From Prochlorococcus sp. AG-347-J19 (GTDB lineage Bacteria > Cyanobacteriota > Cyanobacteriia > PCC-6307 > Cyanobiaceae), in the NCBI GenBank assembly GCA_003279015.1, contig QCBV01000004.1, positions 62,001 through 126,000 on the forward strand: DNA of 64,000 nt. The letters are read 5' to 3'. The position numbers were made by a program, and so were the translations under genes. Numbering within the stretch: the stretch's first letter is position 1; the number at the start of each line of letters is the position of its first letter. Of this stretch, positions 41,213 to 42,423 are shown piece after piece. A model generated the notes under the pieces. The model was not told the origin of the DNA. It searched no databases and was given only the letters and a program-made list of their open reading frames with translations.

Positions 41213-41770
41213 ATGAATTCAGAACTCACGTCATTCGACAAAATCGAACAAAAAATTGGTGGATCAAGAAAAATTTCAAATTATATTATTGGAGGAATGT
41301 TGACTATAGGAGGTATTGGTTTTCTTTTGGCCTCTATATCTAGCTACACAGGAAGGGATTTATTACCTTTAGGAAATCCTTCAACTTTGTTGTTTATCCC
41401 TCAAGGAATAATAATGGGAGCATACGGAGTAATAGCTAATTTATTAAATTTTTACTTGTGGTATTTGGTTTATATAAACTTTGGTTCAGGAAGTAATTAT
41501 TTTGATAAATCCTCAAAATCTGTAGAAATAAAAAGAAAGGGATTATTTAAGGATGTTGAAGTTAAATTAAATTTTGATGAAATTAAATCTGTTAAGTTGG
41601 ATATAAGTGAGGGATTTAATCCTAGAAGAAGAATTGCTCTAGTATTAAAAGGTAGAAAAAAACCTCTCCCTTTAAGCGGTGCAGGTGAACTAAAACCACT
41701 GCTTCAGGTTGAAGAAGAAGGAGCTCGTCTAGCTAAATTTTTAGATGTTAATTTGGAGGGCCTAAAATAA
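41213..41770 (+). CDS. ycf4: Photosystem I assembly protein Ycf4
   Basis: 185 residues. Two transmembrane helices near 25-45 (YIIGGMLTIGGIGFLLASIS) and 60-85 (FIPQGIIMGAYGVIANLLNF) with a stromal C-terminal domain, e.g. IKRKGLFKDVEVKLNFDEIK and EGFNPRRRIALVLKGRKK. Ycf4 assists PSI assembly. It ends GLK-TAA at 41768-41770, and the stop overlaps a probable AUA start of the next gene. Confidence 0.97.
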   Translation: MNSELTSFDKIEQKIGGSRKISNYIIGGMLTIGGIGFLLASISSYTGRDLLPLGNPSTLLFIPQGIIMGAYGVIANLLNFYLWYLVYINFGSGSNYFDKSSKSVEIKRKGLFKDVEVKLNFDEIKSVKLDISEGFNPRRRIALVLKGRKKPLPLSGAGELKPLLQVEEEGARLAKFLDVNLEGLK

Positions 41771-42423
41771 AAAAAAAATATTTTTTAAAAACATTATCTT
41801 TTATACAGGTTTTGTTTTTGGTTCAAGCTTGTAGTTATAAAAGCAAGATTGATCCAAATTATTACTGCCAAAAACTTAAATTTAGTTGTATTCAGGATAA
41901 TAAAGTAGTTAATTTTAAAACTTCAAAAGGTGATTTTGCGGTAAAATTATTTGGTAAAGATAACCCAGTAACAGTATCAAATTTTCTGGAAAACATAGAA
42001 AATAATATTTATGTAAATCAAAAATTTTACAAAATAATAAACTATCCCCAAATAAGATTTATACATGGCGGTGTTAATCCAGAAAATAAATCTTATATGG
42101 AACGAAAACAAAACATGAATAAGACAAGTCCAACAATACCTTTAGAAATAAAATTCAAAGAAGAAGTAAAACCGAGATATAACTATCAAATAAAAAATCC
42201 TAGTGAAACAGTAAATTTAGTTAATACTTTTGAGAGTGGATCAATCGCCATGGTTAAAAGCGGTAAGGATAAGTCTTCATCGACTGAATTTTTTTTTGTA
42301 ACGACTAAGATCCCAGAACTAGATGGAAGATATTCGATTTTTGGAAAGATTATTAAAGGATTAGACGTACTCGAAAAAATTAATAAAGAAGACTACATTA
42401 AGGCAGTCCAGATTTCTAATTAA
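41767..42423 (+). CDS. Cyclophilin-type peptidyl-prolyl isomerase, probable lipoprotein with AUA start
   Basis: Taking the first ordinary start, TTG at 41812 (203 residues), removes the N-terminal signal. The frame is open upstream and from ATA at 41767 reads [20 protein letters not shown] then Cys: a basic n-region, hydrophobic core and lipobox-like V-Q-A-C, about 218 residues in all. GGAGGG at 41755-41760 lies six bases before that ATA, which overlaps the ycf4 TAA by two bases (ATAA). The cyclophilin body has [39 protein letters not shown] and [20 protein letters not shown], then [15 protein letters not shown]. Catalytic Arg of human CypA (FHR) aligns near RFIHGG, so activity is likely but not certain. 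Probably coupled to ycf4. Confidence 0.82.

Follow-up and report, generated by a model that had tools for sequence, protein, structure and literature searches.

The stretch of DNA analysed here, referred to as the window, is 64 kb long and carries on its forward strand two overlapping genes. The upstream gene is ycf4 (41,213-41,770, + strand), which encodes a photosystem I assembly protein of 185 amino acids (Pfam Ycf4, PF02392, E 1.7e-54) that ends in E-G-L-K, followed by a TAA stop codon at 41,768-41,770. The downstream gene encodes a cyclophilin-type peptidyl-prolyl isomerase lipoprotein (Pfam Pro_isomerase, PF00160), of 218 amino acids when counted from the AUA codon that we propose as its start (41,767-42,423, + strand). 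Its frame opens after a TAA at 41,749-41,751, that is from 41,752, closes with a TAA at 42,421-42,423, and holds no ATG, GTG or TTG ahead of the TTG at 41,812-41,814 (+). This first ordinary in-frame start lies six codons ahead of the cysteine of a lipobox (TGT, 41,830-41,832), too late for the putative lipoprotein signal peptide that spans 41,767-41,832 (+), a call that is a reading of the sequence rather than the output of a predictor and is accompanied by the codon-phase test given below.

The sole near-cognate start codon at ribosome-binding distance in this frame is the ATA at 41,767-41,769 (+), where it forms an ATAA overlap with the stop codon of ycf4. Six bases ahead of it, within the last ycf4 codons (TTG GAG GGC), lies the Shine-Dalgarno sequence GGAGGG (41,755-41,760, +); the part that pairs with 16S rRNA, GGAGG at 41,755-41,759, leaves a spacer of seven bases. 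The 16S rRNA of the window's genome ends in CACCTCCT, so that the anti-Shine-Dalgarno CCTCC is present and full pairing with GGAGG is predicted. A first-pass annotation of the same DNA had pointed out this arrangement, and its coordinates for the TAA at 41,749, the ATA, the TTG, the GGAGGG six bases ahead and the ATAA overlap are all correct; its remark that no ATG, GTG or TTG precedes the TTG at 41,812 to start the signal peptide is borne out on the reading frame.

The junction was compared across 160 loci from the window's genus (L002-L151 and L283-L292, the window itself being L002), a genus that presumably comprises the high-light Prochlorococcus clades. These loci reduce to 136 distinct sequences of ycf4 plus cyclophilin, in which identical sequences were merged and near-identical ones kept, so that they do not amount to 136 independent events. 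Of the 80 named loci (L032-L111), many likely belong to the same species as other loci in the set; MIT 9314, 9401, 9302 and 9201, among the named ones, we take to be members of high-light clade II. The start position reads ATA in 135 of the 136 distinct sequences, the window included, GTA in one and ATG in none, and it overlaps the stop as ATAA or ATAG in 135 and as GTAG in the remaining one. This pattern extends over cyclophilin identities to the window from 97% down to about 43%; at the DNA level, ycf4 of the two distant members compared shares 74% and 75% identity with that of the window. On the tree, the first base of the start position changes once, and the second and third not at all. 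AUA thus looks like a feature maintained across the clade and not like a strain-specific G-to-A accident. The first-pass annotation, which had called for such an alignment of relatives, had read the junction as a G-to-A change that left an AUA start. The start at AUA 41,767 stands as the most likely one, and the idea of a recent change does not, because AUA is common to the whole genus, and hence old, and none of the genus sequences read has ATGA at this place.

A wider survey covered 266 genus genomes, although the main count remains that of the 136 distinct sequences rather than the tallies that follow. The pattern TTGGAGGGNNNRARATAR was found in 194 of them, an upper bound for the junction because some of the matches listed sit at other genes. 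Ycf4 was then searched in 77 genomes, comprising 72 that lacked a pattern match and five whose listed match seemed to lie elsewhere; in one of the five (G374) the listed match proved to be the ycf4-cyclophilin junction. Sixty-two of the 77, most of them incomplete, gave no Ycf4 match, five hold a ycf4 that is partial at a contig end, and ten hold a whole one, with ATA in nine and GTA in one. Among the 62 without a match are G361, G104 and G029, which are 92-99% complete; either gene loss or an assembly gap would account for the missing match. The equivalent ATG pattern is present in 118 of the 266 genomes, and none of the matches listed falls at this junction when shared contigs are compared by eye.

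It is conservation that carries weight here, as a Shine-Dalgarno sequence followed by ATA proves nothing by itself: bare GGAGG-N5-9-ATA is common in the genome and stands at chance level genome-wide (201 occurrences vs 223 in the reversed control), and the motif alone was rejected as evidence. Within the 64-kb window, a scan for GGAGG, AGGAG or GAGGA placed 4-9 bases before ATA, ATT, ATC, CTG or ACG and eight or more codons upstream of the earliest ordinary start, limited to frames that run for 100 or more codons from site to stop, returned the junction as the only comparable site. As a separate observation, a second recurrent site, TTGGAGGGTWGGAAATAA, occurs at a different locus in several genus genomes (for instance G120:C2:260710 and G092:C7:60809).

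The Shine-Dalgarno sequence is conserved beyond what the Ycf4 protein would require. GGAGG is invariant in all 136 distinct sequences, the window included, and the two free third codon positions within it, 41,755 (Leu 181) and 41,758 (Glu 182), each show no change on the tree, as compared with a mean of 13.6 changes over 175 ycf4 third positions, only four of which have none. The Leu 181 codon has gone from TTG to CTG eight times and never to TTA, though TTA is the commonest leucine codon in these genes (42%). Glu 182 is encoded by GAG in 136 of 136 sequences vs 16% GAG overall in these genes, and six other conserved glutamate columns have undergone 2-18 changes on the tree. Since these third positions have remained unchanged though the protein leaves them free, what is being kept is evidently a ribosome-binding site, and the counts show the putative site to be under constraint at the level of nucleotides.

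The segment between the ATA and the lipobox cysteine is retained in homologues, cysteine included, as the proposal of an N-terminal signal sequence in the first-pass annotation implied, and its substitutions are of a coding type. No canonical in-frame start lies upstream in any of the 136 sequences, none lies at least 14 codons before the cysteine in 133, and ten have no canonical codon anywhere between start and cysteine. One-base slips are expected in long runs of A; although the run here reaches up to 12 bases, the distance from ATA to cysteine varies by whole codons only in all 136. Among 105 gap-free sequences, changes at first, second and third codon positions number 95/76/128 in the 14 codons that precede the usual TTG (p=0.001) and 139/90/192 in codons 2-22 (p=9e-9), a codon-phase effect that is moderate. 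The share of synonymous differences among single-change codons is 35% in the segment vs 26% expected without constraint and 46% vs 23% in the mature part (3,621 pairs), pairwise counts that are not independent of one another. The segment upstream of the TTG thus behaves as coding sequence, and the moderate codon-phase pattern would fit equally well if ribosomes entered this frame by frameshifting.

The single GTA sequence belongs to L286, from a genome (G363) that is 66% complete, and its ycf4 ends AAG-TAG. An in-frame TTG five codons further on gives MLKKLLHLNLFLFLITGC and has AGGA nine bases ahead of it. It looks as if the start has moved to this ordinary TTG, with sequencing error a possible explanation for a codon seen in one incomplete genome. 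In L112 this TTG occurs alongside ATA, but L286 has a closer relative than L112.

Three other explanations of the junction deserve consideration. The cyclophilin frame is -1 relative to ycf4 and open from before the ycf4 stop, A_AAA precedes the stop in 130 of 136 sequences, T_TTA_AAA occurs in some, GGAGGG is invariant, and a slip site of the form A_AAA with an upstream GGAGGG resembles what we take to be the arrangement in dnaX. A programmed -1 frameshift at A_AAA_TAA, stimulated by the GGAGGG ahead of it, could thus produce a Ycf4-cyclophilin fusion. Such a fusion is unlikely, though, because five sequences whose slip site is broken (L115, L116, L127, L283 and L288) all keep ATA; the slip site is broken in the GTA sequence too. 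Moreover, the slip base at 41,764 changes four times on the tree vs none for GGAGG and one for ATA, and a signal peptide with a lipobox fits a free N-terminus. A start at the downstream TTG 41,812 or a similar codon, leaving no functional signal peptide, would have in its favor that this TTG is in frame and that the first canonical codon stands at the same index (15) in 83 of 136 sequences. However, it would place only six residues before the lipobox cysteine, could not apply to the ten sequences that lack any canonical codon between start and cysteine, leaves GGAGG without a role, and sits poorly with an upstream segment whose frame is maintained and whose substitutions are of a coding type; we consider it very unlikely.

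The last explanation is that the junction is a relic, in which GGAGGG and ATAA are held only by the Ycf4 C-terminus (E-G-L-K-stop) and the cyclophilin is barely translated. The letters are indeed common to the ycf4 codons, and TAA is the preferred stop, used by 45 of 55 ORFs in the window. Yet the Ycf4 protein is indifferent to GAG vs GAA and to TTG or CTG vs TTA, choices that are nevertheless invariant, and the cyclophilin is open and full length, at 215-221 codons, in 136 of 136 sequences, so that we give this explanation hardly any credence.

A start at AUA is a different matter from a preference for AUA over AUG, and several observations counsel restraint on the latter. Two bases of the ATA also serve the ycf4 stop, which is TAA in 131, TAG in five and TGA in none of the 136 sequences, so part of the conservation of ATA is forced. 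A change from ATA to ATG would turn this stop into TGA, which ends only five of the 55 window ORFs; TGA is likewise absent from the cyclophilin stop in all 136. The missing ATG is thus weaker evidence than it looks, because it would need a rare stop for ycf4. Nor is the absence of A-to-G at 41,769 significant alone, as nine of 81 comparable A sites in ycf4 are also without it. On both counts, the missing ATG was rejected as proof that selection acts against AUG. We take AUA to be the codon that stands at the site and the site to be in probable use, and make no claim of selection for AUA over AUG.

Comparison with sister genera places the AUA in a broader context. A canonical start lies 14-50 codons before the cysteine in 69 of 70 sister-genus loci; the exception (L219) is one in which the script anchored on an early cysteine, 11 codons after its ATG, and the frame continues to LFGC. 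In some sister-genus junctions an ATG lies somewhat downstream, and in genus g56 (L167, L178 and L208-L210) there is no ATG at the junction and a TTG stands inside ycf4, shortly before its stop and with AGAGG ahead; this TTG seems to be the start there. The low-GC lineages read among the sister genera show such other arrangements, with an ATG further downstream or a TTG further upstream (L167 and L208-L210). ATGA start-stop overlaps are a familiar sign of translational coupling at operon junctions, and the ycf4-cyclophilin junction shares with them a four-base overlap of stop and start. The ATG version, GGAGGG..ATGA, occurs in a few members of the family (L163, L180 and L181), whereas the overlap in the window's genus is ATAA or ATAG, so that the start is AUA. 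A G-to-A step from an ATGA ancestor may have occurred at the base of the genus, and would then not be recent.

Taken together, the comparative evidence makes it very probable that translation of the cyclophilin lipoprotein in the window's genus begins at an AUA overlapping the stop codon of ycf4, with a strong Shine-Dalgarno sequence, probable coupling to ycf4 and low output. GGAGG in the last ycf4 codons, with its seven-base spacer, would set the initiator tRNA on the AUA; a terminating or freshly recruited ribosome would be held by GGAGG with the AUA in its P site, and the CAU anticodon of the initiator would pair with AUA with a mismatch at the third base. Much of the initiation would probably come from ribosomes that have just finished Ycf4. 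With so weak a codon, cyclophilin output would stay well below that of Ycf4 and be sensitive both to IF3 and to ycf4 translation. We infer initiation at AUA and its efficiency, along with the coupling, the IF3 sensitivity and any benefit of low output, from the sequence comparisons. By analogy with Staphylococcus aureus, in which noncanonical starts gave weak output, we expect the cyclophilin to show low output, sensitivity to IF3 and coupling to Ycf4. A more far-reaching version, in which termination-coupled AUA initiation is a fixed regulatory device, cyclophilin being made almost only by ribosomes just done with Ycf4 and AUA setting a low, IF3-tuned ratio, is a tentative idea that we think somewhat doubtful.

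The translation machinery was examined in the window's genome, which is 96% complete. ARAGORN found 35 tRNA genes, among them none with anticodon UAU, and a special AUA tRNA was rejected for that reason. Two tRNAs have the anticodon CAU, and one of them, judged by eye, has initiator features (a GGG/CCC anticodon stem and a mismatched 1:72 pair). The 35 do not include a third CAU tRNA (Ile2 or elongator Met), which may lie in an assembly gap. The infC frame, which encodes IF3, begins with ATG, with no sign of a general AUA habit, and RNA structure at the junction is not stronger than in shuffled sequences (z 0.39).

To our knowledge, very few bacterial genes have been reported to keep an AUA start, those found in print being from S. 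aureus, and the open-licence literature yielded no report of such starts in cyanobacteria, nor of the pairing of ycf4 with cyclophilin in Prochlorococcus. Among noncanonical starts elsewhere, that of Escherichia coli infC is reportedly preceded by a strong Shine-Dalgarno sequence. The closest parallels are ccpN and infC of Staphylococcus, in which AUA starts with strong (extended) Shine-Dalgarno sequences have been described (Nat Commun 2026, PMC13009471). In S. aureus, ccpN and citZ, which start at AUA, and cvfC1, which starts at AUU, reached about 10% of the output obtained with AUG in poor medium, and ccpN up to 30% in rich medium (PMC13009471). The noncanonical ccpN start and a Shine-Dalgarno sequence with suitable spacer are reported to be conserved in S. 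aureus and Bacillus subtilis (PMC13009471). The junction shares with these genes an AUA start and a strong Shine-Dalgarno sequence, and differs in phylum, in gene class and in that initiation was measured there and is deduced here; the overlap with the ycf4 stop also sets it apart, the available text of that paper mentioning none for the staphylococcal AUA starts (PMC13009471).

Other noncanonical starts are under the control of IF3. E. coli infC begins with ATT and is autoregulated by IF3 (PMC5472188). Like the junction, it has a noncanonical AUN start, one that IF3 holds down; unlike it, the codon is AUU and the product is itself the regulator. Streptomyces sigR has an IF3-repressed GTC start, kept in 32 of 34 species together with a conserved strong ribosome-binding site, which gene finders had misannotated (mBio 2017, PMC5472188). 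The combination of a conserved noncanonical start and a strong ribosome-binding site is common to sigR and the junction, but in sigR the codon is GTC, the product is a stress sigma factor and the start was shown by experiment. IF3 favors strong third base pairs, and weak ones lead to very low expression; the pairing of AUA with anticodon CAU does not figure in the available text (PMC10158994). AUA is treated only as an A-site codon in the available text of PMC11497404.

If the proposed start is correct, an AUA start has persisted across a large radiation of marine phototrophs whose genomes are streamlined. The junctions would then offer a natural set of AUA starts, along with what looks like a single escape (a GTA accompanied by a new TTG), in which to study how a poor start codon is rescued by a strong Shine-Dalgarno sequence and the stop in front of it. 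Gene finders that accept only ATG, GTG and TTG would in that case remove the signal peptide in nearly every genus genome read.

The cyclophilin domain itself is readily recognized. The match to PF00160 covers residues 48-209 (E 1.1e-26, 94.5 bits vs a cut-off of 21.7), and the best match in the PDB is Alr5059 (7a73_A, Anabaena-type; E 2.5e-12). Within the domain (41,908-42,393), other residues appear to stand at the place where the catalytic arginine is usually found in cyclophilins. Isomerase activity may be reduced or lost in the window's cyclophilin, which is only a guess.
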